Below are positions 43,087 to 59,412 of a stretch of 64,000 bases of DNA, in pieces. How positions within the stretch are numbered: position 1 is the first letter of the stretch; each line of letters opens with the position of its first letter. A program made the position numbers and the translations under genes. The notes beneath the pieces were generated by a model. It was given only the letters and a program-made list of their open reading frames with translations, did no database searches and was not told where the DNA came from. Origin of the DNA: Rhodovulum sp. 12E13 (GTDB lineage Bacteria; Pseudomonadota; Alphaproteobacteria; Rhodobacterales; Rhodobacteraceae); NCBI RefSeq assembly GCF_003340565.1, contig NZ_QPLK01000001.1, positions 1 through 64,000 on the forward strand, given 5' to 3'.

Positions 43087-43703
43087 CAGGCGGCCTCGAC
43101 CAGCGCCCGCGCCTCGGCGCAGGTTATCACCGGGCCGATGGTGGAGAGGTCGGCGATGGAGCGCTCGTGCACCTCCGGCTTGAAGGCCGCGCAGCCGTCC
43201 GACAGCACCGCCACGCGGAAATCGCGCACATGCGCCGAGCGGACGGTGGAGGCGACGCCGCCGTTTGTGACGATGCCGCAGACCAGCAGCGTATCGATGC
43301 CGGCCTTGCGAAGAACGAACTCCATCCGCGTCTGGTAGAAGGCGGAATAGGCGACCTTTTCCACCACGATGTCGGCCGGCTGCAACTCGTCCACCAGCCG
43401 GTGGCCCCACTCGCCCGGCGCGAAATCCCCCGTGCCGAGAAAGGGGCGCAGCGCCTTCAGATGCGGCGAGATGAAAGGCACGCCCCCCTTGCCCGGCACC
43501 AGAGTGAACTGGGTGGAGACGACCCAGCCGCCCTTCTCGCGCAGCGCCTCCGCGACCGGCAGCACGCGGGCGGGGAGCGCCGCGATGGCCTCCGACGTCT
43601 GGCCGCCGCGGGCATAGGCGCCTTGCGCGTGCAGGAAGTCGTTCTGCAGATCGACGATCAGCAGGGCCGTGGTGGCTGGGTCGATGCTCTCGAGCGTGCT
43701 CAT
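43086..43703 (-). CDS. Isochorismatase-fold cysteine hydrolase (amidase), copy 1
   Basis: A 205-aa cysteine hydrolase. Catalytic triad visible: Asp18 in LIVDLQNDF, Lys116 in VVEKVAYSAF, and Cys142 in LLVCGIVTNGGVAST with the conserved cis-peptide region before it. This fold covers nicotinamidases, N-carbamoylsarcosine and maleamate amidohydrolases and ureidoacrylate hydrolases; the context of HyuA/HyuB suggests cleavage of an amide or carbamoyl group. The ATG overlaps the HyuA stop (ATGA) and the stop overlaps the flavoprotein start by 1 nt. Confidence 0.9.
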   Translation of the reverse strand: MSTLESIDPATTALLIVDLQNDFLHAQGAYARGGQTSEAIAALPARVLPVAEALREKGGWVVSTQFTLVPGKGGVPFISPHLKALRPFLGTGDFAPGEWGHRLVDELQPADIVVEKVAYSAFYQTRMEFVLRKAGIDTLLVCGIVTNGGVASTVRSAHVRDFRVAVLSDGCAAFKPEVHERSIADLSTIGPVITCAEARALVEAA

Positions 43704-45742
43704 GCGGTCCTCTCGATGACCAGGTTGCCGAAGCGGTCGACCCGGGCGGTCAGCCCGGGATCGACGAAGATGGTCGTGTCGGGCTGTTCGAGGATCGCGG
43801 GGCCGGCGATCGCCTCGCCCGTGGCGAGCGACAGGCGGTCATAGATGCCCGCCTCGTGCCATGCCCCCTCGGCCCAGACCCGCCGCGTGCCGGTGCGGGC
43901 CTCGGCCGCGCCGACGCCGCCCTCTGGCGCGAACAGGGCCATGTCGAAGGCGGGGCGGCGCCCTATCACCGTCACGCGGTAGTTCATCACCCGCATCGGG
44001 ATGCCCTCGAGCAGGCGGCCGAAGGCGGTGCGGTAAGCGGCATCGAAGGCGGCCTGCATGGCCTCGCGCGTCAGCCCCTCGCCCATCTCGACCGGCACCG
44101 CCACCGTGTGCGTCTGCCCGAGATAGAGCATGTCGAACTCGTAGGCGCGGTCGATGCGGTCGAAGGTGGTGCCGGAGGCCAGCACCAGCGCCTCGGTCTC
44201 GTCCGCCGCCTGCGCCATCTCGGCGCCCAGCGCGCCCGCGTCGATCTCCGGCAGCAGGCGGTTCACCGTCTGCACCCGGTCGTGGCGCATGTCGGCCACC
44301 ACGCAGCCCAAGGCCGAGGTCACGCCCGGAAAGCGCGGCACGAGGGCCGAGCGCAGGCCGACATCCTTGATGAGCGCCCCGGTATGGAGCGAGCCGCCCC
44401 CGCCGAAGGGCATGGCCGAGAACTTCGCCGGGTCGTGGCCCTTCTCGATGGAGACGAGGCGGATCGCGCCGGCCATCTTGGCGTTGGCCAGAGCCAGGAT
44501 CGCCTCGGCCGCCGCCTCGACCGAAATGCCCAGCGGCTCGGCCACGTCGCGGGCGATGGCGGCGCGGGCGGCGTCGATGTCGAGCCGGTCGAGCTTGCCG
44601 CCGATGGGACGGTCGGGGTTGATGCGGCCGAGCACGAGGTTCGCGTCGGTCACGGTGGGCCGGTCGTTGCCGAGCCCGTAGCAGACGGGGCCGGGGTCGG
44701 ACCCCGCGCTTTCGGGGCCGACGCGCAGCAGACCGGAGGCGTCGACCGTGGCGATCGAGCCGCCGCCCGCGCCGATGGTGGTGATCTCGATCATCGGCGA
44801 GCGCACGACGAGGCCGAAGTCGATGGCGGTCTGCGGCGCGAGCGCCGGGGTGCCGCCCGCCACGAGCGAGACGTCGAAGGAGGTGCCGCCCATGTCGCAG
44901 GTCACGATGTTCTCGACGCCCGCGGCCGTGGCGATGGCCTGCGCGGCGATCACCCCCGCGGCGGGGCCGGACAGCGCGGTGCGCACCGGCGTGCGCTTGG
45001 CGCTGCCCACGCTCATCACGCCGCCGTTCGACTGCACGATCAGCACCTGCCCAGCAAACCCCTGCGCGTCGAGGCCGCTCTCCAGCCGGTCGAGGTAGGA
45101 CGACACGACGGGCTGGAGGTAGGCGTTGAGCGTGGCGGTCGAGAGCCGCTCGAACTCGCGGATCTCGGGCAGGATCTCGGTCGCCGCCGTGACATAGGCG
45201 TTGGGCCAGACGGAGCGGACGGCCTCGACCGCGATGCGCTCGTTCTCGGCGTTGGCGTAGCCGTTGACGAAGAAGACGCAGAGCGCCTCGCACCCGGCCT
45301 CGCGCAGCGCCTGCGCCTCGGCCTTCACGGCGTCGGGGCTGACCTTTTCCATCACCGTGCCGTCGGCCAGCACGCGCTCGGCCACCTCGCGGCGGTCGGG
45401 GCGGTCGACGACGGGCGTGTAGGCGCCCCGCAGGCCCCAGGTGGTGGGCCGGTCGCGGCGGCGCATCTCCAGCACGTCGCGGAAGCCTGTCGTGGTCACG
45501 ATCCCCGTGCGCGCGCCCTTGCGCTCGAGCAGGGCGTTGGTGCCGACCGTGGTGCCGTGAACGACCGTGCGAATGTCGCCAAAGGTGGCCACGAGCTGGC
45601 CGATCCCCTCGATGAAGCCTTTCGACTGGTCGCCGCGGGTGGAGGGCACCTTGGTGGTGGTCACGCGGCCCTCGGCCTCGTCCCACACGAAAACGTCGGT
45701 AAAGGTGCCGCCGACATCGACGCCGATGACGTAGGCGCTCAT
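43700..45742 (-). CDS. hyuA: Hydantoinase/oxoprolinase subunit A (HyuA)
   Basis: ATP-dependent ring-opening subunit, 680 aa, of the hydantoinase/5-oxoprolinase/acetone-carboxylase superfamily. The N-terminal ASKHA-type phosphate loop is VIGVDVGGTFTDVFVWD, then HGTTVGTNALLERKGARTG and a second motif CDMGGTSFDVSLV in the middle. The C-terminal beta-rich tail has VIGRRPAFDMALF and GPAILEQPDTTIFVDPG. It is encoded directly after hyuB (ATGA overlap); together they normally form one enzyme hydrolysing cyclic amides with ATP. Substrate (hydantoin, N-methylhydantoin, oxoproline or a cyclic imide) is not determined by sequence. Confidence 0.94.
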   Translation of the reverse strand: MSAYVIGVDVGGTFTDVFVWDEAEGRVTTTKVPSTRGDQSKGFIEGIGQLVATFGDIRTVVHGTTVGTNALLERKGARTGIVTTTGFRDVLEMRRRDRPTTWGLRGAYTPVVDRPDRREVAERVLADGTVMEKVSPDAVKAEAQALREAGCEALCVFFVNGYANAENERIAVEAVRSVWPNAYVTAATEILPEIREFERLSTATLNAYLQPVVSSYLDRLESGLDAQGFAGQVLIVQSNGGVMSVGSAKRTPVRTALSGPAAGVIAAQAIATAAGVENIVTCDMGGTSFDVSLVAGGTPALAPQTAIDFGLVVRSPMIEITTIGAGGGSIATVDASGLLRVGPESAGSDPGPVCYGLGNDRPTVTDANLVLGRINPDRPIGGKLDRLDIDAARAAIARDVAEPLGISVEAAAEAILALANAKMAGAIRLVSIEKGHDPAKFSAMPFGGGGSLHTGALIKDVGLRSALVPRFPGVTSALGCVVADMRHDRVQTVNRLLPEIDAGALGAEMAQAADETEALVLASGTTFDRIDRAYEFDMLYLGQTHTVAVPVEMGEGLTREAMQAAFDAAYRTAFGRLLEGIPMRVMNYRVTVIGRRPAFDMALFAPEGGVGAAEARTGTRRVWAEGAWHEAGIYDRLSLATGEAIAGPAILEQPDTTIFVDPGLTARVDRFGNLVIERTA

Positions 45743-47466
45743 TCCGCCGCCTCCTTGCGGATAGTCTTGGTTGCCGCGTCGTCCACCGCGCCGCCCGAGA
45801 TCGCCACGCCGTAGAGGTCGCGCGCCGCGGCCTCGCTCACGTAGCCCCGTGCCACGTCGGCCAGCACCTCGTCGGCCGGCCGCGCGAAGGCGTCGCCGTA
45901 GCCGCCGCCGCCGGGCGTCTCGAGCCGCACGCGCTGGCCGCGCGCGATGTGGATGCCGATCATCTTCGACACCATCGGCGGCGAATGCTCGCCGTCCGCC
46001 TGCTGGTAGAAGAAGCGGTTGGGCGCCCCCTCGTCGCCGCCGACCACGCCGCGCGGCGGCACCTTGCCCCGCTCGCCGAAGAGGAACACGTCGGCCCTCT
46101 CCTCCAGCAGTTCTATCTCGTAGACCGCGCCCAGGCCGCCGCGCCAGCGCCCCGGCCCCCCCGAATCCTCCCGCAAGGCCCACTGGGTGAAGCGCACCGG
46201 GTAGGCCGCCTCGAGGATCTCCAGCGGGGGGATCGTGGCGGTGGAGATCGGCGCGTTGCCGTGGTTCAGCCCGTCGCCGGCGCCGTGCGCCCCGTGCCCG
46301 CCGCCGAAGAACGAGAACATCACCCAGCGCCGACCGTCGGCCCGGTGGCCGGCCAGCGACAGCGCGTTGATCGTGCCGTAGGCGCAGGCCATCGCCGGCC
46401 CGGGCGCGATCTGCGCCACCGCCTGGAACACCACGTCGATCAGGCGCAGGATCGTCTCGGTATAGCCGCCCACGGGCTTGGGCGCGGTCACCGAAAGGAG
46501 CGAGCCCTCGTCGATCACGAAGTCTACCGGCTCCAGCACCCCGGCATTGGCCGGCACCTCGCCGAAGATGTGCTTGAGCGCGACGTAGCAGGCCGCCACG
46601 CAGGTCGAGCGCGAGATGTTCACCGGCCCCGCGCAGGCGGGCGAGGAGCGGGAGAAATCCATCACCATCCGGTCGCCCTCGATCCGCAGGTCGAGCGCGA
46701 TCCTGAGAGGCTCGTCGGTGATCCCGTCGTTGTCGAGCCAGTCCTCGGCCGACACCGTGCCGTCCGGGAGCTGTGCGATCTGGGCGCGCATCATCGTCGC
46801 GGCGCGGTCCTTCAGCGCGGCCAGCGCCTCCTCGGCCCGGTCGCGCCCGTATTCGTCGAGCAGCTCGTGCAGGCGCCGCTCGCCCAGCTCCAGCGCGTTG
46901 ATCTGCCCGTTGAGGTCGCCGTAGAGCGACAGCGGCAGGCGCGAATTGGCCGAGAGGATGTCCACCACGTCCTGCCGGAACGTGCCCCTGTCGTAGAGTT
47001 TCACCGGCGGGATCAGCATCCCCTCCTGGAAGCTCTCGGTCGCGGCGGGGTTGTAGTTGCCCGGCACGTTGCCGCCCACGTCGTGCCAGTGGCCGACCGA
47101 GGCGAGCCAGCAGAAGAGCCGCCCGTCGCGGAACACCGGCTTCACCAGTCGGAAATCCGACAGGTGCGTGCCGCCGTCGTAGGGGTCGTTGAAGATCCAG
47201 ACGTCGCCCTCGGCCACGCCGTCGCGCTCCGCCGCCTTCTCGATCACCGCCTTCACCGCGAAGGCCATGACGCCCACGAAGATCGGCAGGCCCGACTTGC
47301 CCTGGACCAGGGTCTCGCCTGTCTGCGCGTCATACAGGCCGTGCGAGGCGTCGTGCGCCTCGGCGATGATCGGGTTGAAGGCCGAGCGGAACAGCGTGGC
47401 GTCCATCTCGTCGGCGATCTGCTCGAAGCGGCCCTTGAGGATCGCGAGCGTAACCGGGTCGATCAT
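45739..47466 (-). CDS. hyuB: Hydantoinase/oxoprolinase subunit B (HyuB)
   Basis: Partner of HyuA, 575 aa. Family blocks: IDPVTLAILKGRFEQIADEMDATLFRSAFNPII at the N-terminus (split motif), GDVWIFNDPYDGGTHLSD, ASVGHWHDVGGNVPGNYNPAATESFQEG, and the late REDSGGPGRWRGGLGAVYEI and VRLETPGGGGYGDA. No signal peptide. ATG 47466 overlaps the upstream lyase stop (ATGA), and the 3' end overlaps hyuA. The order lyase-hyuB-hyuA-amidase suggests nitrogen removal is integrated with carbon-skeleton cleavage. Confidence 0.94.
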   Translation of the reverse strand: MIDPVTLAILKGRFEQIADEMDATLFRSAFNPIIAEAHDASHGLYDAQTGETLVQGKSGLPIFVGVMAFAVKAVIEKAAERDGVAEGDVWIFNDPYDGGTHLSDFRLVKPVFRDGRLFCWLASVGHWHDVGGNVPGNYNPAATESFQEGMLIPPVKLYDRGTFRQDVVDILSANSRLPLSLYGDLNGQINALELGERRLHELLDEYGRDRAEEALAALKDRAATMMRAQIAQLPDGTVSAEDWLDNDGITDEPLRIALDLRIEGDRMVMDFSRSSPACAGPVNISRSTCVAACYVALKHIFGEVPANAGVLEPVDFVIDEGSLLSVTAPKPVGGYTETILRLIDVVFQAVAQIAPGPAMACAYGTINALSLAGHRADGRRWVMFSFFGGGHGAHGAGDGLNHGNAPISTATIPPLEILEAAYPVRFTQWALREDSGGPGRWRGGLGAVYEIELLEERADVFLFGERGKVPPRGVVGGDEGAPNRFFYQQADGEHSPPMVSKMIGIHIARGQRVRLETPGGGGYGDAFARPADEVLADVARGYVSEAAARDLYGVAISGGAVDDAATKTIRKEAAE

Positions 47467-48323
47467 GCACCCCCTCCATCGTATGTCTTGCCGAGCGCCA
47501 GCATGGCGTCGGTGCCCAGCACCGCGTTCAGCCCGGCGAAATCGTGCATCCGGTCGCGGAAGCCGTCGTTGGAGCCGGTGGCGACGAGGTTGCCGTAATA
47601 GTCCTGCGCGGTGCGGGCCAGCGCGCGGACGATGCCGCCCGGGAAGATCACGAGCGAAAAGCCCATTTCCTCAAGGCCCTTCGTGTCCTGCAGGGGGGTC
47701 TTGCCCCCCTCCACCATGTTGGCCATCAGCGGCACCCGATCCCCGAACCGCTCCACGATGGTGCGGAGCTGGTCGACCGATTGCGGCGCCTCGACGAACA
47801 GCACGTCGGCGCCGGCCTCGACGATCAGCTCGGCCCGCTCTAGCGCCCGGTCGAACCCCTCCACCGCGATGGCGTCTGTCCGCCCGATCACCAGCGTCTC
47901 GGCCCGCGCGTCCACCGCGGCGCGGATCTTGCCGGCCATCTCCTGCGGCGAGACGAGCGTCTTGCCGTCGAGGTGGCCGCACCGCTTGGGCAGCGTCTGG
48001 TCTTCCAGCTGGATCGCCGCGGCGCCCGCCCGCTCGAAGGCGCGCATCGTGCGCTGCACGTTCAGCGCGTTGCCGTAGCCGTTGTCGGCGTCGACGATCA
48101 GCGGCAGGTCCACCCGGTCGCGGATCGCGGCGATGGTGTCGGCCACCTCGGCCATCGAGACGAGGCCGATATCGGGCCGGCCGAAGCGGGTATAGGCGAT
48201 GGCCGCGCCCGACAGGTAGGCGGCCCGCGCCCCCGCCTGCTCGGCGATCAGCGCGGTCAGCGCGTCATGGACGCCCGGGGCGAGAGTGATGCCCGGGCCT
48301 TGCAGCATCTCGCGCAGGCTCAT
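47463..48323 (-). CDS. Isocitrate lyase/PEP-mutase family C-C lyase (PrpB / dimethylmalate-lyase-like)
   Basis: A 286-aa TIM-barrel lyase. Metal-binding LIVDADNGYGN holds Asp78 and Asp80. The catalytic loop LPKRCGHLDG has Cys115 in the KRCGH motif that marks C-C bond lyases (methylisocitrate lyase, 2,3-dimethylmalate lyase, isocitrate lyase) rather than phosphonate mutases. VIGRTDAIAVEGFD is also conserved. Likely product set is pyruvate or glyoxylate plus a second acid. Immediately upstream are small and large LeuCD-like subunits, a pairing that recalls dimethylmaleate hydratase plus dimethylmalate lyase, or aconitase plus PrpB. Substrate inferred only. Confidence 0.88.
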   Translation of the reverse strand: MSLREMLQGPGITLAPGVHDALTALIAEQAGARAAYLSGAAIAYTRFGRPDIGLVSMAEVADTIAAIRDRVDLPLIVDADNGYGNALNVQRTMRAFERAGAAAIQLEDQTLPKRCGHLDGKTLVSPQEMAGKIRAAVDARAETLVIGRTDAIAVEGFDRALERAELIVEAGADVLFVEAPQSVDQLRTIVERFGDRVPLMANMVEGGKTPLQDTKGLEEMGFSLVIFPGGIVRALARTAQDYYGNLVATGSNDGFRDRMHDFAGLNAVLGTDAMLALGKTYDGGGA

Positions 48324-48820
48324 GGCGCCGCCGCGAAGCGTTTCTTGAGGTGGGGCACGAGGCCACCGTCGGCGATGATGCCGCGCAGGTTCTCCGGGAT
48401 CGGCTCGGTCGGGATGTCGATGCCCTTCTCCGTCAGCCGCAGCATGCCTGTCTCGGGGGCGAGCGTCGCGCGGTCGCCGTCTGCCACGCCCGCGAGGTCG
48501 GGCGCGGTCAGCACCGGCAGGCCGAGATTGATGGCGTTGCGGTAGAAGATCCCGGCGAAGGAGCGGGCGACGACGCCGGCGAGGCCGAGATGGCGCAGGG
48601 CTTCGGCCGCCTGCTCGCGCGAGGAGCCCATGCCGAAGTTCTTCCCCGCCACGAGGATGTCGCCCGGCCGCACGCCCGCGGCGAAATCGGGCCGGGCGGC
48701 CTCGAGGCAGTGGGCGGCCAGCTGCTCGATGCCGCCGCGCATGTAGCGGCCGGGGGCGAGCTGATCGGTGTCGATGTCGTCGCCGAAGAGCCAGACGCGG
48801 CCCGGTTGGGTCTCGGTCAT
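48320..48820 (-). CDS. Aconitase-family hydro-lyase small subunit (LeuD-like)
   Basis: A 166-aa swivel-domain subunit. Motifs: VWLFGDDIDTDQLAPGRYM at the N-terminus, GDILVAGKNFGMGSSREQAAEALRHLG (the GSSRE substrate-binding block), and VVARSFAGIFYRNAINLGLPVL. Length is normal for archaeal-type LeuD/homoaconitase small subunits. ATG 48820 overlaps the large-subunit stop (ATGA) and the stop overlaps the lyase start. No leuA/leuB is near, so leucine synthesis is unlikely; it should hydrate or isomerise an alkylated di- or tricarboxylate. Confidence 0.92.
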   Translation of the reverse strand: MTETQPGRVWLFGDDIDTDQLAPGRYMRGGIEQLAAHCLEAARPDFAAGVRPGDILVAGKNFGMGSSREQAAEALRHLGLAGVVARSFAGIFYRNAINLGLPVLTAPDLAGVADGDRATLAPETGMLRLTEKGIDIPTEPIPENLRGIIADGGLVPHLKKRFAAAP

Positions 48821-50091
48821 TCCGTCACCTCGCGGGGGTCGGTGATGCGGCCCGTCACGGCCGAGGCGGCGACGGTCAGCGGCGAGCCCAGCCAGACCTT
48901 CGACTCCGGGTCGCCCATGCGGCCCTTGAAGTTGCGCGCGGTCGACGAGATGCACGTTACCTCGGCGCCCAGCCGGTGCGCGCCGTAGCCCGCGCAAATG
49001 CCGCAGGCGTTGGGCAGGAGCTTCGCCCCCGCCGCTTCCAGCACGCCCAGCGTGCCGTCGTCCGCCGCCCTGTCCTGGTCGCGCCTCGAAGACGGCGCGA
49101 CCAGGATCTCGACCCCCGGCGCGGCCGTGCGGCCCTTCAGGATCGAGGCGGCGGCGGCGAGATCGTCGTATTTCGCGCCGGTGCAGGCGCCGATATAGGC
49201 GACGTTCACGGCTGTCTTCCCGGCCTCCGTCGCCGGCATGGCGTTGGCGGGCGAATGCGGCGCGGCGACCTGCGGTGGCAGGGCGGCCGCGTCGAAGACG
49301 TGGTGCTCCTGCAGTTCGGCCCCCGGATCGGTGCGCAGCCACGCCCAGTCCTGCTCCCAGCCGGTCACGTCGGCGCCGGTGCCGCGAAGGAAGCGCGCGG
49401 TCTCGGCGTCGGGGGCGATCATGCCTGTCTGACCGCCCAGTTCGGCGGCCATGTTGGCCATTGTCATCCGCTCCTGCATCGACAGCGCGGCGACGGCCTC
49501 GCCGGTATATTCCACCGCCTGGTACTTGCCGCCGTCCATGCCCAGACGCCCGCAGAGTGCGAGCATCATGTCCTTGGCCATCACGCCGGGGCCAAGCCGC
49601 CCCTGCCACTCGATCAGGATCGTGCCGGGCACGCGCACCCAGATCTCGCCGGTGGCCAGCACGCCGGCCATCTCGGTCGCGCCGATGCCGAACATGTAGG
49701 CGCCGAAGGCCCCGCCGGTGGGTGAATGACTGTCGCCGCCCACGACGAACATGCCGGGCCTGAGCGCGCCGCTCTCGGGCAGCACGACGTGGCAGATGCC
49801 CACCCCGTCGTGGAAGCGCACGCCCTTCTCCCGCGCCCAGGCGCGCGTCAGGTCGAGAATGCGCGCGCCCTCGTCGGTGTCGCCCGGCACGAAATGGTCG
49901 GAGATCAGCACGACCTTCGCCGGGTCGAACAGCCCGACGCCAAGCTCCTTGAGGATCGGCTCGACGCGCCGCGGCCCGCCCGAGTCGTGGATCATCGCGA
50001 GGTCGACCCGAGCGGTCACCACATCCCCTGCGGTCACGCTCTCGCGCCCGCAGGCGCGGGCGATGATCTTTTGCGCCAGCGTCGCGGTCAT
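48817..50091 (-). CDS. Aconitase-family hydro-lyase large subunit (LeuC-like, 4Fe-4S)
   Basis: A 424-aa large subunit that binds a 4Fe-4S cluster. Visible: ISDHFVPGDTDEGARILD, GGDSHSPTGGAFGAYMFGIGATEMAGVLATG, cluster ligands in YIGACTGAKYDDLAAA and in PNACGICAGYG (CxxC), then SSTARNFKGRMGDPESKVWLGSP (all given as motif blocks). All three cluster cysteines are therefore present and the enzyme should be active. It belongs to the archaeal-type LeuC/HacA/DmdA branch. ATG 50091 overlaps the stop of the GntR gene (ATGA), linking regulator and enzyme expression. Confidence 0.93.
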   Translation of the reverse strand: MTATLAQKIIARACGRESVTAGDVVTARVDLAMIHDSGGPRRVEPILKELGVGLFDPAKVVLISDHFVPGDTDEGARILDLTRAWAREKGVRFHDGVGICHVVLPESGALRPGMFVVGGDSHSPTGGAFGAYMFGIGATEMAGVLATGEIWVRVPGTILIEWQGRLGPGVMAKDMMLALCGRLGMDGGKYQAVEYTGEAVAALSMQERMTMANMAAELGGQTGMIAPDAETARFLRGTGADVTGWEQDWAWLRTDPGAELQEHHVFDAAALPPQVAAPHSPANAMPATEAGKTAVNVAYIGACTGAKYDDLAAAASILKGRTAAPGVEILVAPSSRRDQDRAADDGTLGVLEAAGAKLLPNACGICAGYGAHRLGAEVTCISSTARNFKGRMGDPESKVWLGSPLTVAASAVTGRITDPREVTE

Positions 50092-50963
50092 TCCTCGCCT
50101 CCTGCATGGCCCGGAAGGGCTGGGGCCGGCGACCACTGCATGCCGCCGTCGCCCTCGATCCGGGTCATCGTCATGGCCATCTGGTAGCGGTCGGGGTGGT
50201 AGAGCGCGCGCAGATACTGGACCGCCCGCCCTTCGGCGTCGCTCACCACCCGGCGCACCTCGAGCAGCGGCGCACCGGCGTAGAGTGTCAGGGCCTGCGC
50301 GACGTCTGGCGCGGCGAGCGTGGCCGAGACGGTCTGCCGGGCCGCGTTCACCCTCACGCCTGCTCGTTCGATCAGCTTGAGCAGCGGCACGGCCTCGAGA
50401 TCGGCCGCGGTGATGCCCTCTGCGACGGGTTCCGGCAGCCATGCCGTGAGATGCGAGAGAGGCGCACCGTCGAGCGAGCGCACCCGCACCGTGCGCAGCA
50501 GCCGCGCCCCCGGCGCCACCCCGAGCGCCCCGGTGACCGAAGGCGGCGCCGCGGCCGGCCCGAAGTCGAGCAGGCGCACCTCGGTCGTGCGCTGCATGTG
50601 CGCCATCTGGTCGAGCCAGCCCTCGATCGAGCTCTGCATCGGCGGCGCCGATGTCGGCGCGAGCAGGCGCGTGCCGCGACCCCGCTCGCGGGTGACAAGC
50701 CCCGCCCCGGCCAGCTCGTCGAGGGCGCGCTTGGCGGTGATGCGCGAGACGCCGAATTCCTCCGAGAGGTCGTGCTCGCCCGGCATCCGCGCGCCCACCT
50801 CCCACTCGCCGGCCGCGATGCGGCTCGTCAGCACGGCGACGATCTGCTGGTAGAGGGGCAGCGGGCTGGAAGGGTCGAGCGCAGGGCCGCCGGCGCCCGT
50901 CGCGCCGGCGGCCGCCCCATCGCCCCTGGCCGGTCGCGCCGGCTTCTGCACCACGTCACCCAT
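50088..50963 (-). CDS. GntR-family regulator, HutC subfamily (UTRA domain)
   Basis: A 291-aa transcription regulator. A Pro/Ala-rich 30-residue leader is followed by the GntR winged helix: LPLYQQIVAVLTSRIAAGEWEVGARMPGEHDLSEEFGVSRITAKRALDELAGAGLVTRERGRGTRL (as blocks across residues 35-100). The C-terminal UTRA effector domain carries LLRTVRVRSLDGAPLSHLTAWLP and LYAGAPLLEVRRVV. Ligands of this subfamily are small carboxylates, imidazoles or sugars. Its gene is the second of the nine-gene operon. A perfect 14-bp palindrome sits 8 nt before its start, consistent with autoregulation. Confidence 0.94.
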   Translation of the reverse strand: MGDVVQKPARPARGDGAAAGATGAGGPALDPSSPLPLYQQIVAVLTSRIAAGEWEVGARMPGEHDLSEEFGVSRITAKRALDELAGAGLVTRERGRGTRLLAPTSAPPMQSSIEGWLDQMAHMQRTTEVRLLDFGPAAAPPSVTGALGVAPGARLLRTVRVRSLDGAPLSHLTAWLPEPVAEGITAADLEAVPLLKLIERAGVRVNAARQTVSATLAAPDVAQALTLYAGAPLLEVRRVVSDAEGRAVQYLRALYHPDRYQMAMTMTRIEGDGGMQWSPAPALPGHAGGEE

Positions 50964-50995: not shown

Positions 50996-51760
50996 TCAAG
51001 CGGATTTCGCCGCCACCGCGTCGAGCATCGCGTGCAGCACGTCGCGCCGGGGCGCCGGGCTGGCCGGCCATGCGGCGCGGCTGTGGGTCAGCCCCAGCCC
51101 CAGCACTGCCTCGGCCAGCTTGTAGGTCAGCGGGCCGGGGTTCACCACCGGCACGGGCAACCGCTCGGCGAGGTAGCCGTGCGCCTCGTGCATCGTGGTC
51201 GACCCGAGCAGGATCACGTCGGCGCCGTCTTCCTCGATGCAGCGGCGGGCAACGGCCTCGAGCTGCGGGAAGATCTCGCTCTCCTTGCCAGCCAGAAGCG
51301 ACTGGTTGTCGGGCGTCGCGTCGATCCAGCGGATCGAGGCGCAGGCATGGGCCACGCCCAACTCGCCCAGCACCTTCTCGTAAAGGTGCTTCCAGTGCGG
51401 CCACATGGCGACGTAGGAGAACCGCTTGCCCAGCATCATCGCCATGAGAACCGAGGCGCGGCCCGGCCCGATCACGGGAATCGACAGTTCCGCCCGCAGC
51501 GCCGCCAGCCCGCTGTCGCTCATCGTGTCGATGCAGACGGCGTCGTAGCCCTCTGCCTCGGCCTCGAGCCCGGCCTCGAGCGCGCCGACCTCGGCCAGCA
51601 CCATGTCGGAGGCCGAGACGTAGTTCTTCGGCGCCGCCCGAACCGGGCGAAACTCGAACGCGATGTCGGGGCCGAGTTCCACCGCGTCGAGCTGCGCGCG
51701 GCGCTGGGCAAGGTTCCGCTCGTCCATCGGGAAGGGCACGATCACCAGAACCCGCTTCAT
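50996..51760 (-). CDS. Asp/Glu/hydantoin racemase superfamily protein lacking both catalytic cysteines
   Basis: A 254-aa protein with the two-lobed Asp/Glu racemase fold. The first active-site strand reads AVCIDTMSDSGLAAL, where hydantoin racemases have IACFDDPGL, so Thr79 replaces the catalytic Cys. The second reads VILLGSTTMHEAHGYL, where LGCAGM is expected, so Ser187 replaces the second Cys. All other landmarks (PVIGPGRASVLMA, VPVVNPGPLTYKL) are retained. It probably does something other than two-base racemisation. ATG 51760 has GGGAGG 6 nt upstream. First gene of the minus-strand operon, divergent from an MmgE/PrpD gene across 67 bp. Confidence 0.86.
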   Translation of the reverse strand: MKRVLVIVPFPMDERNLAQRRAQLDAVELGPDIAFEFRPVRAAPKNYVSASDMVLAEVGALEAGLEAEAEGYDAVCIDTMSDSGLAALRAELSIPVIGPGRASVLMAMMLGKRFSYVAMWPHWKHLYEKVLGELGVAHACASIRWIDATPDNQSLLAGKESEIFPQLEAVARRCIEEDGADVILLGSTTMHEAHGYLAERLPVPVVNPGPLTYKLAEAVLGLGLTHSRAAWPASPAPRRDVLHAMLDAVAAKSA

Positions 51761-51827: not shown

Positions 51828-53195
51828 ATGGACCATCTGGGCACGCTCGCGGCCTTCTGCGCCGAGACCCCGTCCGAGGCGATTCCTGCCGACGTGCTGA
51901 CGCGGACGGCGCTGATCCTGGCGGATTCGGTCGGCGCCATCGTTGGCGGCGCGGCCGAGCCCGACATCGCCGCCCTGCGCGCCCGGCCCTTCCTCGCGCC
52001 GCCCGGCCCGGCGCTGCTGCTGGGCACGGAGGTGACGACCACGCCCGCCGCCGCCGCGCTGATCAACGGGACCGCGGGCACCGTGCTGGAGATGGACGAG
52101 GGCAACCAGTTCGCCCGCGGGCATCCCGGCATGCACGTCGTTCCCGCCGCGCTCTCGCTCGCCGCCGCGCGGGGCGCGGTGTCAGGGCGCGATCTGCTGG
52201 CCGCGGTCGCGCTCGGCTACGAGGCCGCCGCCCGGGTTGGCATCGCCACGCGGCCCAACCCCGCGATGCACCCCCACGGCACATGGGGCGCGATCGGCGC
52301 GGCGGTCGCCGTGCAGCGGCTCATGGGGGCCAACGCGGCGCAGATGCGGACGGCGATGAACATGGCGGCGAGCCTCGGGCTGACCACCTCGCGCCGCACG
52401 ATGCTCGAGGGGGGGACGGTGCGCAACGCCTTCACTGGTCTTGCCGCGCAGGCCGGCGTGATCGTGGGCGACATGGTGGCGGCGGGCTTCACCGCAGACG
52501 CGGAGGGCGTCGCGCATGTCTACGGCCACGTCGCCGGGTCGAGCTTCGACGCGGGCGCGCTGACCGTCTCGCTCGGCGTGCGGTGGGAGGTGGCGCGCAA
52601 CTACTTCAAGATGCACTCCTGCTGCCGCTACAACCACGCCGCCCTCGACGCGCTGGCGCAGATCAGGGCAGAGCGGCCGGGCCTGTCGCCGGACGAGATC
52701 GAGCGGGTCGAGGTGGCGACCTATTCGCTGGCGGTCGAACTCGACGATCCGGCGCCGGCCAACGTGCTGGGGGCGAAGTTCTCCGTGCCCTTCGCGGTGG
52801 CGACGGCGCTGGTGACGGGCTCGACCGGGGTGGAGAGCTTTACCCAGGAGCGGGTCGACGATCCCGAGATCCGGGCGCTGGCTTCACGCGTCGGCGTGCG
52901 CGAGGACAAGGGCATGACCGCTGCGCTGCCGGACAAGCGCCCGGCGCTGGTCACGCTGCACCTCGCGGGCGGAGAGACGCTGACCGCGGCGACCGAGACC
53001 AACCGGGGCGACTGGGCCGACCCCTACCCGCCCGGCGAGATTCGCGACAAGTATCTCTCGCTTACCCGTCGCCTCTGGCCCGAAGGCGCGGCGATTGCCG
53101 TTTGGGACGATCTGACGGGCCTGTCGGGGGGCGAGGCCGACGCGCTTTTCACGCGCATGGCACGCGCCGCGACGCCCGAGACGGAGGCGGTCTGA
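51828..53195 (+). CDS. MmgE/PrpD-family protein, copy 1
   Basis: A 455-aa all-helical MmgE/PrpD protein (2-methylcitrate dehydratase/cis-aconitate decarboxylase superfamily). Typical pieces: TALILADSVGAIVGGAAEPD, LINGTAGTVLEMDEGNQFARGHPGMHVVPAALSLA (usual EMDD/GHPG block), NPAMHPHGTWGAIGAA, and the C-terminal beta domain with YFKMHSCCRYNHAALDAL. Chemistry in the family is dehydration, isomerisation or decarboxylation of carboxylated substrates. Here the block reads EMDEGN rather than the common E(Y/H)DDT. Start ATG 51828 (aggcggggagatacaagg leader). The stop overlaps the carbamoylase start by 1 nt. Confidence 0.88.
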   Translation: MDHLGTLAAFCAETPSEAIPADVLTRTALILADSVGAIVGGAAEPDIAALRARPFLAPPGPALLLGTEVTTTPAAAALINGTAGTVLEMDEGNQFARGHPGMHVVPAALSLAAARGAVSGRDLLAAVALGYEAAARVGIATRPNPAMHPHGTWGAIGAAVAVQRLMGANAAQMRTAMNMAASLGLTTSRRTMLEGGTVRNAFTGLAAQAGVIVGDMVAAGFTADAEGVAHVYGHVAGSSFDAGALTVSLGVRWEVARNYFKMHSCCRYNHAALDALAQIRAERPGLSPDEIERVEVATYSLAVELDDPAPANVLGAKFSVPFAVATALVTGSTGVESFTQERVDDPEIRALASRVGVREDKGMTAALPDKRPALVTLHLAGGETLTAATETNRGDWADPYPPGEIRDKYLSLTRRLWPEGAAIAVWDDLTGLSGGEADALFTRMARAATPETEAV

Positions 53196-54133
53196 TGCGC
53201 GAGATTGTCATCGGTGCCGCCCAGTTGGGCCCCATCCAGCGGGCCGAGCCGCGCGCGGCGGTGGTCGCGCGCCTCGTCGCCTTGCTCGACCGGGCGAAGG
53301 CGGCGGGGTGCGATCTGGTCGTCTATCCCGAGTTGTGCCTGACCACCTTCTTCCCGCGCTGGGTGATGGAGGATCAGGCCGAGGTCGACGCGTGGTTCGA
53401 GCGCGAGATGCCCAACGCGGCGACGCAGCCGCTCTTCGACCGGGCGCGGGAGCACGGGATCGCGCTGTCGCTCGGCTATGCCGAGTTGACGCCGGAGGGG
53501 TGCCATTTCAACACCCAGATCCTGACCGACCGCGCGGGCAGGATCGTCGGCAAGTACCGCAAGGTCCACCTGCCGGGCCATGCCGAGTTCGACCCCGAGC
53601 GCGCGTTCCAGCACCTCGAGAAGTGCTATTTCGAGCCGGGCGATCTGGGTTTTCCCGTCTTCCGCAACCTGGGCGCGTGGATGGGGATGCTGATCTGCAA
53701 CGACCGGCGCTGGCCCGAGGCCTACCGCGAGATGGGCCTTCAGGGGGTAGAGCTGGTGATGCTCGGCTTCAACACGCCCTCGGTGAACTCGCAGAACGCG
53801 GGCGAGGGGCCGGAAATGCGCCGCTTCCACTCCGACCTGTCGGTGCAGGCGGGCGCCTACCAGAACGCGACCTGGGTCGTCTCGGTCGCCAAGGCGGGGG
53901 TGGAGGACGGCCACCCGCTGAACGCGGGCACCGTGATCGTCGATCCGAACGGAGTGATCGTGGCGCGCGGCGAGACGGAGGGAGACGAGCTGGTCGTCCA
54001 CCCCTGCGACATGGACGCGACCGTATTCGGAAAGTCGACCATCTTTGACTTCAAGCGCCATCGTCGGATCGAGCACTACACGAGGATCGCCGCCCAGACT
54101 GGGGTGATCCACCCCGACGGCACGGCAGGGTAG
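53195..54133 (+). CDS. N-carbamoyl-D-amino-acid hydrolase-like nitrilase-superfamily amidohydrolase
   Basis: A 312-aa CN-hydrolase. Catalytic Glu46 (VVYPELCLTTFFPRW), Lys123 (VGKYRKVHLPGH) and Cys168 (MLICNDRRWPE) are all present. The additional blocks RAFQHLEKCYFEPGDLGFPVF and QAGAYQNATWVV closely track the Agrobacterium D-carbamoylase family from memory, as does the length. It would hydrolyse an N-carbamoyl-D-amino acid or a related ureido acid to the amine, carbon dioxide and ammonia, completing hydantoin-type ring degradation. It is coupled to the MmgE/PrpD gene by a TGATG overlap. Confidence 0.93.
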   Translation: MREIVIGAAQLGPIQRAEPRAAVVARLVALLDRAKAAGCDLVVYPELCLTTFFPRWVMEDQAEVDAWFEREMPNAATQPLFDRAREHGIALSLGYAELTPEGCHFNTQILTDRAGRIVGKYRKVHLPGHAEFDPERAFQHLEKCYFEPGDLGFPVFRNLGAWMGMLICNDRRWPEAYREMGLQGVELVMLGFNTPSVNSQNAGEGPEMRRFHSDLSVQAGAYQNATWVVSVAKAGVEDGHPLNAGTVIVDPNGVIVARGETEGDELVVHPCDMDATVFGKSTIFDFKRHRRIEHYTRIAAQTGVIHPDGTAG

Positions 54134-54223: not shown

Positions 54224-54607
54224 TCAGGTGCCGATGCTGTTCGCGCCGGCCATGTAGACCTGCACCGCGGCGATCCGGGCATCGCGCAGGGTGAAGACGT
54301 TGGCGTTCGATTTCTCGTCCACGACCTCGCCGCCCTGCGTGTAGGTCACCCTGAACTGGCTCGCGATCCGGCCGTGCGCTGGCGCGGGCGTGTGGATGAA
54401 GGCATGGTGCTGCGCCCGAGGCCCGTCGCCAGCCCATCGCGCGGCGAACAGCTCCGCGATGGCGGCGCGGCCCTCGGTGCGGGTGCCGTGCGTCTCGATC
54501 GTCAGCACGCAGTCGTCGGTCAGCACATCGGCCAGCGCCTGCGCGTCGAACGCGTCGAGCGCGGCGAACCACGCCTCGGCGAGGGCGATCGCCTCGGCGT
54601 CGGTCAT
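54224..54607 (-). CDS. SnoaL-like (NTF2-fold) protein, tandem copy 2
   Basis: A 127-aa single-domain protein with the NTF2/SnoaL cone fold: an initial helix pair AEAIALAEAWFAALDAFDAQALADVLTDDCVLTIETHG (as blocks), then beta-sheet segments HHAFIHTPAPAHGRIASQF and a terminal AAVQVYMAGANSI. Many such proteins are enzymes of small cyclic substrates or simple binding proteins; active-site acids cannot be assigned. It overlaps the upstream paralogue by 4 nt (ATGA), and its end lies close to the palindromic element. Confidence 0.85.
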   Translation of the reverse strand: MTDAEAIALAEAWFAALDAFDAQALADVLTDDCVLTIETHGTRTEGRAAIAELFAARWAGDGPRAQHHAFIHTPAPAHGRIASQFRVTYTQGGEVVDEKSNANVFTLRDARIAAVQVYMAGANSIGT

Positions 54608-54990
54608 GTCTCGCCTTTCAGCGTGTTCGGCCCCGCCATGTAGACGGCCACCGCCGAGAAGCGCTCGCCCGCGATCTCGAAGAAATTGCAGTTGGATTTC
54701 CGGGTGAGCGCGCCGTCGCGCTCGGTGTTCTCGACCGAAAAGCGCGAGGCGATGCGCCCGCCCCCAGGTTCGGGGACGTGGGTGAAGCGATGGTGGCGAA
54801 CCGCCGCATGCTCGGCCCACAGACGGCGGAACATGGCGGCGATCTGCGCGTGGCGCTGCAGCCGCACACCGTGGGTCTCGACGGTGAACGCGCAGTCCTC
54901 CGTCAGCGTGGCGAGCAGGGCCGCTTCGTCCTCGCCGTCGACGGCGGCGAAATAACGCTCGACCAGCGCGATCTGCTCTGCGCGGGTCAC
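54604..54990 (-). CDS. SnoaL-like (NTF2-fold) protein, tandem copy 1
   Basis: A 128-aa NTF2-fold protein paralogous to the next gene: shared ERYFAAVDGEDEAALLATLTEDCAFTVETHGVR-type start (in parts), HHRFTHVPEPGGGRIASRF and AVAVYMAGPNT near the end. The GTG at 54988-54990 is chosen because it overlaps the deacetylase stop (GTGA) and aligns with the paralogue's N-terminus. Two adjacent related copies suggest either a heterodimer or subfunctionalisation after duplication. Confidence 0.83.
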   Translation of the reverse strand: MTRAEQIALVERYFAAVDGEDEAALLATLTEDCAFTVETHGVRLQRHAQIAAMFRRLWAEHAAVRHHRFTHVPEPGGGRIASRFSVENTERDGALTRKSNCNFFEIAGERFSAVAVYMAGPNTLKGET

Positions 54991-55874
54991 GGCACCACCC
55001 CCTCGGGAAGGCCCGCCACATGCTCGGCCACCTGCCCCGGCGTCGCCAGCCAGATATCGTCGCGGTGCGCGAGGATATGCGTCAGCGCCCGCCGCAGCGC
55101 CCGCAGGCGGAAAGGCTGGCCGATGACGAAGGGGTGCAGCACGGCGGTATAGACCAGCGGGCGGCGCGCCGATTGGGCCAGCATCTCGTCGAACTGGTCG
55201 ATCATCATCGCCTCGAAATCGCGCGCCGTCTCGTGGCGAAAGACGAGGGCGGGCGAGTCGTTGACCTCGATGGAATAGGGCACCGACAGGATAGGCCCGG
55301 AGCGCGTGCGCATCCGGAACGGCTGGTCGTCGGCCGGCCAGTCGAGGTGGTAGGCGTAGCCCGCCTCCTTCAGCAGGTCGAGCGTGACGGGCGACTGCAC
55401 GATGTAGGGGCCGAGCCAGCCCCGGGGCGGCGTGCCGAAGGCGCTCGCGATCGCCTCTGTCGTCTCTGCGATGAGCGCGCGTTCCTCGTCCTCGCCCATC
55501 ACGTCCTGCCGCTCGGAATTGGTGCGGCCGTGGCCGATGGGCTCGTCGCCGCGCGCCCTGATCCGTTCCACGATCTGCGGCGCGTTGCGGATCGCCTCGG
55601 CATTGAGGTTGTGCGAGCAGGGCAGGCCCAGATCGTCGAGCAGGTCGAAGAGATACCACATGCCCACGCGGTTGCCATAGTCGCGCCAGGCGTAGTTGCG
55701 CGTGGTCTGGGCGGCGCCGGGCACGGTATGGTCGCTGCCGAGCCCGGTCATGAAGCTGAACCATTCGACGTTGTTGCAAAGGCAGACGGCCAGCCGCCTG
55801 CCGCCCGGCCACGTGTAGTCTGCCCGGTCGGACAGGGGCACGTAGTCGTAGCGATCGTGCCGGGCGATCTCCAT
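54987..55874 (-). CDS. Polysaccharide-deacetylase-fold hydrolase (PuuE allantoinase / imidase-like)
   Basis: A 295-aa NodB-fold hydrolase without signal peptide. N-terminus RHDRYDYVPLSDRADYTWPGGRRLAVCLCNNVEWF; instead of the metal-binding TFDDG it has NNVEWF, and the second motif is PIGHGRTNSERQ. Lack of the canonical deacetylase metal triad and its cytoplasmic location fit the PuuE-allantoinase/imidase subgroup, reported to open hydantoin or cyclic-imide rings (from memory). Its length, about 295 residues, also fits. ATG 55874 follows GGGAGGG. First gene of a three-gene unit with two SnoaL-like genes, divergent from the operon at 55966. Confidence 0.82.
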   Translation of the reverse strand: MEIARHDRYDYVPLSDRADYTWPGGRRLAVCLCNNVEWFSFMTGLGSDHTVPGAAQTTRNYAWRDYGNRVGMWYLFDLLDDLGLPCSHNLNAEAIRNAPQIVERIRARGDEPIGHGRTNSERQDVMGEDEERALIAETTEAIASAFGTPPRGWLGPYIVQSPVTLDLLKEAGYAYHLDWPADDQPFRMRTRSGPILSVPYSIEVNDSPALVFRHETARDFEAMMIDQFDEMLAQSARRPLVYTAVLHPFVIGQPFRLRALRRALTHILAHRDDIWLATPGQVAEHVAGLPEGVVP

Positions 55875-55965: not shown

Positions 55966-56655
55966 ATGGCTGTCTGGGGCGGCATCGTCACCGACGAGGA
56001 GGAGCGGCGCTACGAACGGGCGGGCTTCGGCGGCGCGGGCGCCATCGGGACGCGGCCCGCCCTGCTGATCATCGACGTGCAATACCGGACGGTCGGCACC
56101 GAGCCGCGCCCCTACTGGGAGGCGATCGAGGAATACCCCACATCCTGCGGCGACGTCGGCTGGGCGGCCGTGGCGCGGATCGCAGAGCTGCTCGCGCTGT
56201 TCCGCGAGAAGGGGTTCCCGGTGCTCTACCCCCATGTCGCCCCCAAGAACGTGGCGACCGATGCGGGGCGGCTGGCCGAGAAGATTCCCTCGATCATGGG
56301 GATCGACGCCAAGGGCTACGACTTCGTGGCAGAGGTCGCGCCGCAACCGGGCGACGTGCTGCTCCCCAAGAAGCACCCCTCGGCCTTTTTCGGCACGCCG
56401 CTGGTCAGCCACCTGATCGACCTGCGCGCCGACACGCTCGTTGTGACGGGCTGCACCACGTCGGGCTGCGTGCGCGCCTCGGTGACCGACGCCTTCGCAT
56501 ACAACTTTCACGTCGTCGTGCCCGAGGATGCGGTGTACGACCGCGCGCCTACCTCGCACGCGGTCAACCTGTGGGACATGAACGGCAAATATGCCGACGT
56601 GATGCCGACCGACGCGGTCATGGATGTCATCGGACGAGTGGAGACCACGGCATGA
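55966..56655 (+). CDS. Isochorismatase-fold amidase (N-carbamoylsarcosine amidohydrolase-like), copy 2
   Basis: A 229-aa cysteine hydrolase. Triad: Asp37 in ALLIIDVQYRTVG, Lys135/136 in LPKKHPSAFFGT, and Cys168 in VTGCTTSGCVRAS. The GCTTSGCVRA string is the hallmark of the carbamoylsarcosine-amidase branch. An N-terminal 25-residue extension (DEEERRYERAGFGG) is also typical of that branch. It could release ammonia and carbon dioxide from an N-carbamoyl compound, or hydrolyse maleamate-type amides. ATG 55966 has GGAGG at 55955-55959. It opens the four-gene plus-strand operon amidase-MmgE-flavoprotein-MmgE. Confidence 0.92.
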   Translation: MAVWGGIVTDEEERRYERAGFGGAGAIGTRPALLIIDVQYRTVGTEPRPYWEAIEEYPTSCGDVGWAAVARIAELLALFREKGFPVLYPHVAPKNVATDAGRLAEKIPSIMGIDAKGYDFVAEVAPQPGDVLLPKKHPSAFFGTPLVSHLIDLRADTLVVTGCTTSGCVRASVTDAFAYNFHVVVPEDAVYDRAPTSHAVNLWDMNGKYADVMPTDAVMDVIGRVETTA

Positions 56656-58043
56656 ACATGCGCGAGACGACGAGCGCGGCGCCGGACGCGGCGGCAGCGG
56701 TGGGCGCGGCGCTAAGCCGGCTGGTGGCGCACCTGGCGGCGACCGGGTGGGACGACCTGCCCGAGGCGGTGCGCACGCGGGCCGCCCTGGTCATGGCCGA
56801 CGATCTCGCGGCGATGGTCGCCGCGCGGGACGAGCCCGAGGTGGTCGCGCTGCACGACGGCCTGGCCCGAGCCGCCGGCCCGGCGGAGGCGACGGTGTTC
56901 AACGGGCGGGGGATGCGGCTCGACCGCTACTCGGCGGCCCTGGCCAATGGCTGCGCGGGCGACTGGGCCGAACTCGACGAAGGCTACCGGCGAGTGATCT
57001 GCCATGCCGGCCTCTACTGCCTGCCGGCGCTGCTCGCCGAGGGCGAGGCCGAGGGGCACGCCACGCGCGACATGCTGCGCGCGCTGGTGCTGGGGTACGA
57101 GGTGGCGGCTCGGGTGGCGCGCTGCTTCATCTTTCCCAACCTCGTGCTGCACCCGCATGGCTCGCTCGCGGCGGTGGGCGCGGCGGCGGCGGTGGCCTTC
57201 CTGCGCCGCGTGCCGGCGGATCACGCGGTGGCCGCGATCTCGTCGGCCGCGACCATGGTGCTGCCCGGCCCTTACACCCACCCGATCGAGGGCTCGCTGG
57301 TGCGCAACGTCTGGCCGGGCGTGGCGGCGCAGACCGGGCTGCGGGCGGTCGACTGGGCCGGCATCGGCATTGCCGGCCTGCCGACCGCGCTGCACGACGT
57401 CTACGCCGACGCCTTCGGCGCCACGCCCGATGCGTCGCAGCTCGACGGCGGGCTCGGCGAGGAATGGGCGATCTCGGACGGCTATCACAAGGTCTTTGCC
57501 TGCTGCCAGTATGGCCACGCGACCATCGAGGCGACGCTCAAGCTACTGGAGCAGACCCCGCAGGAACGCATCCGGTCGATCCGGCTCGACACCCACTACA
57601 AGGCGCGGGTGATGGACAACCCCGACCCGCCCACGACCATCGGCGCCAAGTTCTCGATCCAGCACATCGCGGCGACGGCGGCGGTGCATGGCTCGGGCGG
57701 GGCGGAGGCGTTCTCGGCGGCGTCGCTCTCGCATCCGCGCGTGGCCGAGCTGCGCCACAAGGTGCAGATCGCCGCGTGGGAGCCGGTGCCAGAGTGGCCC
57801 AACGACCGCCCGACCCGCGTGACGTGGGAGCTCGACGACGGCTCGACCGTCTCGGAAGAGGTGCTGTCGGCGCGCGGCGGCCCCGACCTGCCGTTCACGC
57901 CGGACGAGATCCGCGCCAAGGCGCAGGCGATCGTGGCCGCACCCTACCCGGCGATGCCCGCCGCGCTCGACGCGCTGCTGGCGCTCGACGATGCGGTGCT
58001 GGCCGAAAGCTGGGACCGCGCCGCGGCGGCGATGACGGCGTGA
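56652..58043 (+). CDS. MmgE/PrpD-family protein, copy 2
   Basis: A 463-aa MmgE/PrpD protein. Helical domain: ALVMADDLAAMVAARDEPEV, ALANGCAGDWAELDEGYRRVICHAGLYCLPALLAEGE (equivalent of the acidic EMDD/GHPG block, here ELDEGYR and CHAGLY), VLHPHGSLAAVGAAAAV. C-terminal domain: YHKVFACCQYGHATIEATL and PTTIGAKFSIQH. It is moderately diverged from copies 1 and 3. The ATG at 56652 overlaps the preceding stop (ATGA). Function should be dehydration/isomerisation of an acid produced by, or presented to, the adjacent flavoprotein. Confidence 0.87.
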   Translation: MNMRETTSAAPDAAAAVGAALSRLVAHLAATGWDDLPEAVRTRAALVMADDLAAMVAARDEPEVVALHDGLARAAGPAEATVFNGRGMRLDRYSAALANGCAGDWAELDEGYRRVICHAGLYCLPALLAEGEAEGHATRDMLRALVLGYEVAARVARCFIFPNLVLHPHGSLAAVGAAAAVAFLRRVPADHAVAAISSAATMVLPGPYTHPIEGSLVRNVWPGVAAQTGLRAVDWAGIGIAGLPTALHDVYADAFGATPDASQLDGGLGEEWAISDGYHKVFACCQYGHATIEATLKLLEQTPQERIRSIRLDTHYKARVMDNPDPPTTIGAKFSIQHIAATAAVHGSGGAEAFSAASLSHPRVAELRHKVQIAAWEPVPEWPNDRPTRVTWELDDGSTVSEEVLSARGGPDLPFTPDEIRAKAQAIVAAPYPAMPAALDALLALDDAVLAESWDRAAAAMTA

Positions 58044-59401: not shown

Positions 59402-59412
59402 CGGAGGCTCGC

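Follow-up and report, generated by a model that had tools for sequence, protein, structure and literature searches.

A conserved branch of the Asp/Glu racemase superfamily with Thr and Ser in place of both catalytic cysteines

Within a 64,000-nt stretch of the Rhodovulum sp. 12E13 genome (contig NZ_QPLK01000001.1, positions 1 to 64,000; hereafter the window), we identified a gene, racA, whose product has the fold of the Asp/Glu racemase superfamily and carries Thr79 and Ser187 in place of both catalytic cysteines. Because both cysteines are swapped, the branch to which the protein belongs is well preserved, and genes for the breakdown of ring-shaped amides lie around it, the racA product probably performs a different reaction from that of a Cys/Cys racemase.

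RacA retains the racemase fold and lacks both catalytic cysteines

The racA gene is an intact 254-codon open reading frame (ORF) on the minus strand (50996-51760), and its description as a 254-aa racemase-fold protein draws on the ORF itself, Pfam, phmmer, AlphaFold2, and an alignment of the clade. In the translation, Thr79 lies within IDTMSDSGL and Ser187 within LGSTTM, and cysteines occur only at positions 76, 140, and 174. Computed from the ORF start, codons 77-81 (I-D-T-M-S), which form the first catalytic site of the fold, fall at 51518-51532, and codons 186-190 (G-S-T-T-M), which form the second, fall at 51191-51205, both on the minus strand. The plus-strand translation of 50996-51760 is an unrelated frame with no racemase likeness.

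RacA matches Pfam family PF01177 at 1e-28 (101.1 bits, against a cut-off of 31), while no NCBIfam model matches it at E 0.001. A phmmer search against solved structures returned 6 sequences at E ≤0.01, led by an entry for the Klebsiella allantoin racemase (2.4e-15); in the alignment to this enzyme (KpAllR, 3qvj), T79 and S187 fall onto both catalytic cysteines. We then consulted an AlphaFold2 model, generated from 47 aligned rows that included the window protein, which has a mean pLDDT of 91.9 and a pTM of 0.88 and shows the racemase fold over its full length. The best structural match to this model by VIA-align was KpAllR (3qvk, 3qvj), with a Z score of 28.0 over 240 residues at 2.3 A, followed by PfAllR from P. 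fluorescens (5lfd, Z 27.6), the P. horikoshii hydantoin racemase (2eq5, Z 24.1), and OpaE (Z 23.3). Lower scores were obtained for arylmalonate decarboxylase (AMDase; 3dg9 and 3ixl, Z 17.8 and 17.5), maleate isomerase (2xed and 4fq5, Z 16.5 and 16.9), and EcL-DER (5elm, Z 15.2), and Foldseek agreed with VIA-align on the top of the list. On the basis of the profile match and of the VIA-align and Foldseek matches, RacA is a member of the PF01177 superfamily by sequence and fold, nearest to the allantoin/hydantoin group. The first-pass annotation had claimed, from the sequence alone, that both catalytic cysteines are replaced in an otherwise conserved fold, and the phmmer alignment to 3qvj, the clade alignment, and the fold match at Z 28.0 all confirm this.

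The allantoin/hydantoin racemases (KpAllR, PfAllR, and 2eq5) have their whole fold in common with RacA, match it in sequence at E 2e-15 to 4e-8, and carry the same DxG-motif Asp and Gly. They differ from it in the exchange of KpAllR Cys79/Cys184 for Thr79/Ser187 and in the residues G158-K159-E160, H191, N207, and Y213, which are new in RacA. Allantoin racemase is listed as a Cys/Cys enzyme in the excerpted text of PMC8142540, and Thr118, Thr119, and Asn12 are given as the allantoin-binding residues of KpAllR in that of PMC12661438. In the phmmer alignment, Thr118 and Thr119 of KpAllR correspond to Ala118 and Met119 of RacA; for Asn12, motif reading alone points to Phe10.

PF01177 matches eight times above its cut-off in the genome from which the window derives. 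Clade members encoded in four annotated plasmid records are labeled either "aspartate/glutamate racemase family protein" or "hydrogenase expression protein HupH".

The Thr/Ser pair is conserved across the clade

A scan of genome contigs yielded 151 relatives, and the best 80 of the 151 loci were kept and read. The variant, which could have been peculiar to a single genome, is not confined to this one, and its pattern exceeds chance. Among rows at least 59% identical to RacA, 86/86 carry the Thr/Ser pair (duplicates included; two fragments from locus L023 dropped), as do 32/32 rows of 50-59% identity (duplicates included), which are mostly tandem paralogs that we call RacB. Below 50% identity the pair occurs in 0/18 rows, where we instead find Cys/Cys (11 rows), Asp/Gly (5), Glu/Gly (1), and Cys/Gly (1). 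We also searched 398 genomes of the phylum for deeper members, of which 11 matched at E 1e-25, Cys/Cys relatives included; these deeper searches covered Pseudomonadota, with wider coverage from the genome-contig scan. After repeated loci were removed and plasmid and deeper members added, 120 of 121 distinct clade members, the window protein included, have Thr/Ser, and the remaining one, from Novosphingobium, has Ser/Ser. Clustering at 70% identity gave 22 clusters, 21 Thr/Ser and one Ser/Ser. The cultured species with racA include Paracoccus alkenifer (L074) and Pseudooceanicola atlanticus (L036).

At site 79, Thr is encoded by ACG (64), ACC (47), ACA (8), and ACT (1), with TCG in the Ser/Ser member; Ser187 is encoded by TCG (50), TCC (45), TCA (24), and TCT (2). 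All four synonymous codons are thus seen at each of the two sites, a spread which, with the residues fixed, fits purifying selection on Thr79 and Ser187. Between the window gene and racA of L020, the nearest named relative of the window (Rhodobacteraceae), 33 codon differences are synonymous and 12 non-synonymous. We reject decay because the ORF is intact, the motif is kept in 121 distinct proteins, and the codons drift synonymously. One locus, L023, has racA broken into two adjoining ORF pieces (L023:9647-10765), through a frameshift, a stop, or an assembly error. An apparent gene fusion at L038, where an 822-codon frame runs from racA, was rejected: Pfam sees PF01177 alone, at residues 24-210, and the frame runs on without a recognizable domain.

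A nearby cysteine might have taken over a catalytic place, the candidates being Cys76 and Cys140. Cys76 is kept in 118/121 proteins and Cys140 in 110/121, and neither aligns with the catalytic columns. Cys76 is clade-specific, yet it is also kept in 8/8 degenerate partners that lack the active-site motifs (see below). Based on the alignment, the incomplete conservation, and the retention of Cys76 in the degenerate partners, we reject a takeover by either residue.

We defined as clade-specific those residues present in at least 95% of the 121 proteins and mostly different in nine hand-picked Cys/Cys relatives. This set comprises R20, Q23, D78, T79, S81, S83, W120, Y127, P150, G158-K159-E160, S187, T188, T189, H191, N207, G209, and Y213, with counts from 115 (W120) up to 121/121. 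Y127, S187, T189, and N207 are invariant (121/121); R20, Q23, D78, T79, T188, and H191 are each found in 120/121, G158 and Y213 in 118/121, and K159 and E160 in 117/121. Each of these residues is matched in only 0-2/9 of the Cys/Cys relatives. P208 is also fixed, but it is common to 5/9 of the Cys/Cys relatives. By predicted secondary structure, D78-S83, W120, P150, G158-E160, S187-H191, and N207 are held in loops or at helix starts, which is where the cleft of the racemase family sits, and R20, Q23, Y127, G209, and Y213 lie inside helices.

Phylogeny, degenerate partners, and a second Cys-less branch

In a maximum-likelihood tree of 80 rows, all Thr/Ser proteins and eight degenerate partners fall together in a single 67-row clade with a support of 100/100. 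When the partners are excluded, the fork of the Thr/Ser rows alone (59 rows) has a support of 87/92. The stem of the clade measures 1.95 changes per column and adjoins the Cys/Cys protein of L014; this protein and other long branches may be misplaced in the tree. Together with the intact ORF and the near-universal Thr/Ser pair, the clade upholds the proposal in the first-pass annotation that RacA represents a coherent subfamily and not decay.

The degenerate partners are racemase paralogs, with motifs like LADFGDYGAN ... LAG, that stand directly after racA at some loci (L047:10760-11497, L051:10760-11425, L054:5242-6117, L064:10576-11406, L084:10772-11422, and L100, L101, and L103). Such a paralog is likely a pseudo-enzyme partner of RacA, and these tandem genes show that part of the RacA clade lacks the active-site motifs.

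A separate, well-supported branch of the tree (L113, L114, and L118) is likewise without both cysteines and has Ala/Gly at the two sites. These PF01177 proteins resemble RacA in the absence of both cysteines and differ from it in their motifs, IIAAFGDPG and GGAPL/AGAPL as against IDTMSDSG and LGSTTMH in the RacA clade. At L156, near 11978, a gene 34% identical to that of L118 adjoins a core cluster of the kind described below.

Genes around racA

In the window, racA is the first gene of a tight minus-strand run of seven genes, racA-gntR-leuC-leuD-icl-hyuB-hyuA. A GntR/UTRA regulator (50088-50963; NCBIfam, Pfam) begins 32 bp after racA and is followed by a LeuC-like large subunit of an aconitase-family hydratase (48820-50091; NF001614 above cut-off, start from translation), a LeuD/DmdB-like small subunit (48320-48820; TIGR02087 above cut-off, start from translation), a C-C lyase of the isocitrate lyase/PEP mutase family with a KRCGH motif (ICL, 47463-48323; methylisocitrate-lyase-like), and the HyuB/caprolactamase-beta-like (45739-47466) and HyuA/caprolactamase-alpha-like (43700-45742) subunits. 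Divergent from racA across 67 bp, an MmgE/PrpD family gene (51828-53195, plus strand; Pfam) leads into a gene for a nitrilase-superfamily (CN_hydrolase) protein (53195-54133, plus strand; profile matches). Two SnoaL-like proteins (54224-54607, by Pfam, and 54604-54990) and a polysaccharide-deacetylase-fold, PuuE-like protein (PDA, 54987-55874) are encoded beyond it on the minus strand. The plus strand then carries an isochorismatase-family cysteine hydrolase (55966-56655; nearest models RutB and biuret amidohydrolase), a second MmgE/PrpD family protein (56658-58043, start approximate), an FAD oxidoreductase of the flavocytochrome c/fumarate reductase type (58040-59401), and a third MmgE/PrpD family protein (59404-60801, start approximate), and the minus strand the DctM subunit of a TRAP transporter (60804-62114). 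The PuuE, caprolactamase, methylisocitrate lyase, and RutB labels hold at the family level only, since the model matches, like that to biuret amidohydrolase, fall below their cut-offs.

To describe this gene company more widely, we used tblastn to look for nine families in those 54 of 90 Thr/Ser loci that measure at least 18 kb and in 14 control loci that surround other PF01177 genes (7 from the genome of the window; one control only 11 kb long, and one around a Cys-less gene). At least three of the nine families were found in 45/54 Thr/Ser loci and 0/14 controls, a comparison that favors the Thr/Ser loci, given that its reference proteins were taken from the window and from five of these loci. 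Five families were prominent: FAD (39/54 vs 0/14), ICL (38/54 vs 0/14), PDA (32/54 vs 1/14), LeuC (29/54 vs 0/14), and MmgE (28/54 vs 0/14). The LeuC and MmgE counts support the earlier suggestion that homologs with the DTM..GSTTM signature keep company with LeuCD-like or MmgE genes. Against this small control set, differences were not significant for the cysteine hydrolase (17/54 vs 1/14, Fisher p 0.092), HyuA (15/54 vs 2/14, p 0.49), HyuB (13/54 vs 1/14, p 0.27), and SnoaL (8/54 vs 0/14, p 0.19). A ring opener, either HyuA or PDA, is present at 45/54 Thr/Ser loci vs 3/14 controls. We note that the Thr/Ser loci are not independent; thinned to 20 loci of <75% identity, they show each family in 5-9/20, a ring opener in 13/20, and LeuC or ICL in 10/20, with none of the nine families at two of them (L042 and L104).

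Within 600 bp upstream of racA, we found FAD in 29/74 loci and a divergent MmgE gene in 17/74. Downstream stand RacB (30/77), a degenerate partner (6/77), or SnoaL (7/77), and rhizobial loci hold racA and racB inside an enzyme operon, FAD-racA-racB. At the deep loci L119-L122, a SnoaL gene adjoins the Thr/Ser gene in 4/4, HyuAB is found in three, and LeuCD in L119. L121 (13445-14386 and 18342-19535) and L122 (7763-8683 and 2538-3746) encode an HMGL-like lyase and a family III CoA-transferase, which stand with HyuAB near the Thr/Ser gene as if replacing the ICL-type lyase.

The core cluster often occurs without racA

Relatives of the core lyase of the window were detected at E 1e-75 in 58/380 genomes of the order. 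RacA at ≥53% identity was detected in 5/390, four of these five being among the 58 with the lyase, and matches to RacA at E 1e-25 are found in 10 genomes of the order, Cys/Cys relatives included. From the 58 lyase genomes, leaving out the window, we hand-picked 17 further core loci (L151-L167). HyuA, HyuB, ICL, the cysteine hydrolase, and LeuC are present in 17/17 and FAD in 15/17, and a Thr/Ser gene is present within the fetched stretch in 0/17; three of these genomes (G021, G042, and G326) carry RacA elsewhere.

The core pathway is thus commoner than racA, and the core is common in the order of the window. Because it often occurs without an adjacent racA (0/17), racA looks like an optional addition to the core and not a required step. 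Most likely, RacA feeds an additional substrate or isomer into the common core; in view of the 0/17 count and of 58/380 vs 5/390, it may act on something outside the core. The proposal that the pathway needs RacA as an isomerase linking the FAD enzyme to LeuCD is weakened, as all 17 core loci are without a Thr/Ser gene in the fetched stretch. The first-pass annotation had placed racA at the head of a hydantoinase operon; this describes the seven-gene run of the window well, but the core often has no racA beside it.

Among open-licence PMC papers, we found no literature on the Thr/Ser branch or on the hydantoinase/LeuCD/lyase core cluster. The nearest lead is the Ti plasmid pTiEU6, which carries HyuAB and mmgE, whose opines include lactams, and for which a role in opening the opine lactams is proposed for HyuAB-like proteins (excerpts of PMC6733357); caprolactamase is treated in PMC8453981 and PMC6061476.

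Discussion

We consider it somewhat better than an even chance that RacA is an active thiol-free enzyme, and not a two-thiol racemase, that serves an optional step where cyclic amides, imides, or lactams are broken down to (alkyl)dicarboxylates. We infer its catalytic role, its acid-base residues, its substrate class, and its place as an optional feeder from conservation, fold, and gene company. The allantoin/hydantoin-racemase fold would be kept without the two-thiol 1,1-proton transfer, and Thr79 and Ser187 would occupy the cysteine places, where their hydroxyls would form hydrogen bonds. Any proton transfer would then fall to the new near-invariant residues, the best candidates being His191, Lys159/Glu160, and Asp78. 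As a guess from residue type, Arg20, Lys159, and Asn207 may bind an anionic substrate. The likeliest reaction would be the isomerization/tautomerization or the elimination/decarboxylation of an unsaturated dicarboxylate or half-amide, the product of which would enter the common core of FAD oxidoreductase, LeuCD hydratase, and methylisocitrate-lyase-type lyase. If RacA is such an enzyme, an isomerase or tautomerase is a tentative proposal, a decarboxylase or lyase a doubtful one, and a hydrolase improbable.

Judging from family chemistry, the core itself may work in five steps: HyuAB or a PuuE-like protein would open the ring, the cysteine hydrolase would deamidate the product, the FAD enzyme would oxidize or reduce an acid resembling succinate or fumarate, the DmdAB-like LeuCD would add water, and the lyase of the ICL/PEP-mutase family, which has the KRCGH motif, would cleave a C-C bond. 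We take this order of steps to resemble that of dimethylmaleate degradation.

Other readings start from particular relatives of the fold. RacA could act as a maleate-isomerase-like cis-trans isomerase, converting an E-alkene made by the FAD enzyme into a Z-alkene for LeuCD through a non-thiol nucleophile or an acid-base route. The presence of maleate isomerase within the fold superfamily (Z 16.9) and the frequency of FAD and LeuCD/ICL genes as neighbors, with FAD directly upstream of racA in 29/74 loci, are consistent with this idea. However, the resemblance is a fold match only, maleate isomerase passes through a succinylcysteine intermediate according to the title of PDB 2xed, and the catalytic cysteines needed for such an adduct are absent in RacA. 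Such an isomerase is also not generally needed, given that LeuC and ICL occur without an adjacent Thr/Ser gene in 17/17 core loci, and FAD in 15/17, and we regard the proposal as unlikely.

A second possibility, which we rate as distinctly unlikely, is an AMDase-like decarboxylase, in which the cleft would stabilize an enediolate after CO2 loss and a residue other than cysteine would donate the proton. Among solved families, AMDase (Z 17.8) ranks directly behind the allantoin/hydantoin racemases and OpaE, and it has in common with RacA the fold and a Ser/Thr-rich first-site loop. The excerpted text of PMC4996985 describes an AMDase dioxyanion hole with Thr75/Ser76 and one Cys, Cys188 as the only proton donor, Gly74, and mandelate-racemase company for AMDase genes; Thr79, Ser81, Ser187, Thr188, and Thr189 of RacA lie in the matching loops. 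The donor Cys188 is nevertheless Ser187 in RacA, and Gly74 and Gly189 are replaced by Thr79 and Thr188, as placed by fold and motif and not by pairwise alignment.

RacA might also be a true racemase or epimerase that uses Thr and Ser instead of the thiols, its substrate being an activated compound, for example a hydantoin or imide. Its closest fold is that of allantoin racemase, and ring openers are present at 45/54 Thr/Ser loci vs 3/14 controls. The E. coli L-Asp/Glu-specific racemase EcL-DER works with Thr83/Cys197, cited as an unbalanced pair in the excerpted text of PMC12661438, and so has Thr at the first site, as RacA does; however, it keeps a Cys at the second, where RacA has Ser. The excerpted text of PMC8142540 makes no reference to Thr83. 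In the fungal homolog OpaE, according to the same excerpts, C90S keeps 4.8% activity while C199S and the double mutant keep ≤0.3%. Since a second-site Cys-to-Ser exchange leaves so little activity in OpaE, Ser187 is, by analogy, unlikely to support a racemase mechanism. Among open-licence PMC papers, we found no precedent for a natural Ser at this site. The ligand residues of KpAllR are also replaced in RacA, and we hold a true racemase to be improbable on this evidence.

Finally, a non-catalytic RacA, serving as a ligand sensor or as a scaffold/regulatory subunit, would be in keeping with the loss of both thiols, the GntR regulator after racA in the window, and the degenerate paralog directly after racA in 6/77 loci, but it is very improbable given the many polar residues conserved at or near the cleft loops and the rhizobial racA and racB inside the enzyme operon FAD-racA-racB.

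Returning to the thiol-free enzyme, we tentatively extend it to the clade as a whole: a thiol-free class may have arisen once in the Asp/Glu racemase superfamily, with a new set of Asp78, Lys159-Glu160, and His191, performing an undescribed reaction in a proteobacterial pathway, likewise undescribed, that converts cyclic imides, lactams, or ureides into substituted malates, and sometimes working as a two-gene pair (two Thr/Ser proteins, or one with a pseudo-enzyme). The neighborhood points to a catabolic core of ring opener, amidase, FAD oxidoreductase, LeuCD, and C-C lyase. A thiol-free branch would correct automatic labels such as aspartate/glutamate racemase and HupH. The Asp/Glu racemase superfamily serves as a textbook example of acid-base chemistry by a pair of cysteines, and a sizeable conserved branch without both thiols and with its own conserved set would, if true, be a natural experiment in active-site re-tooling.
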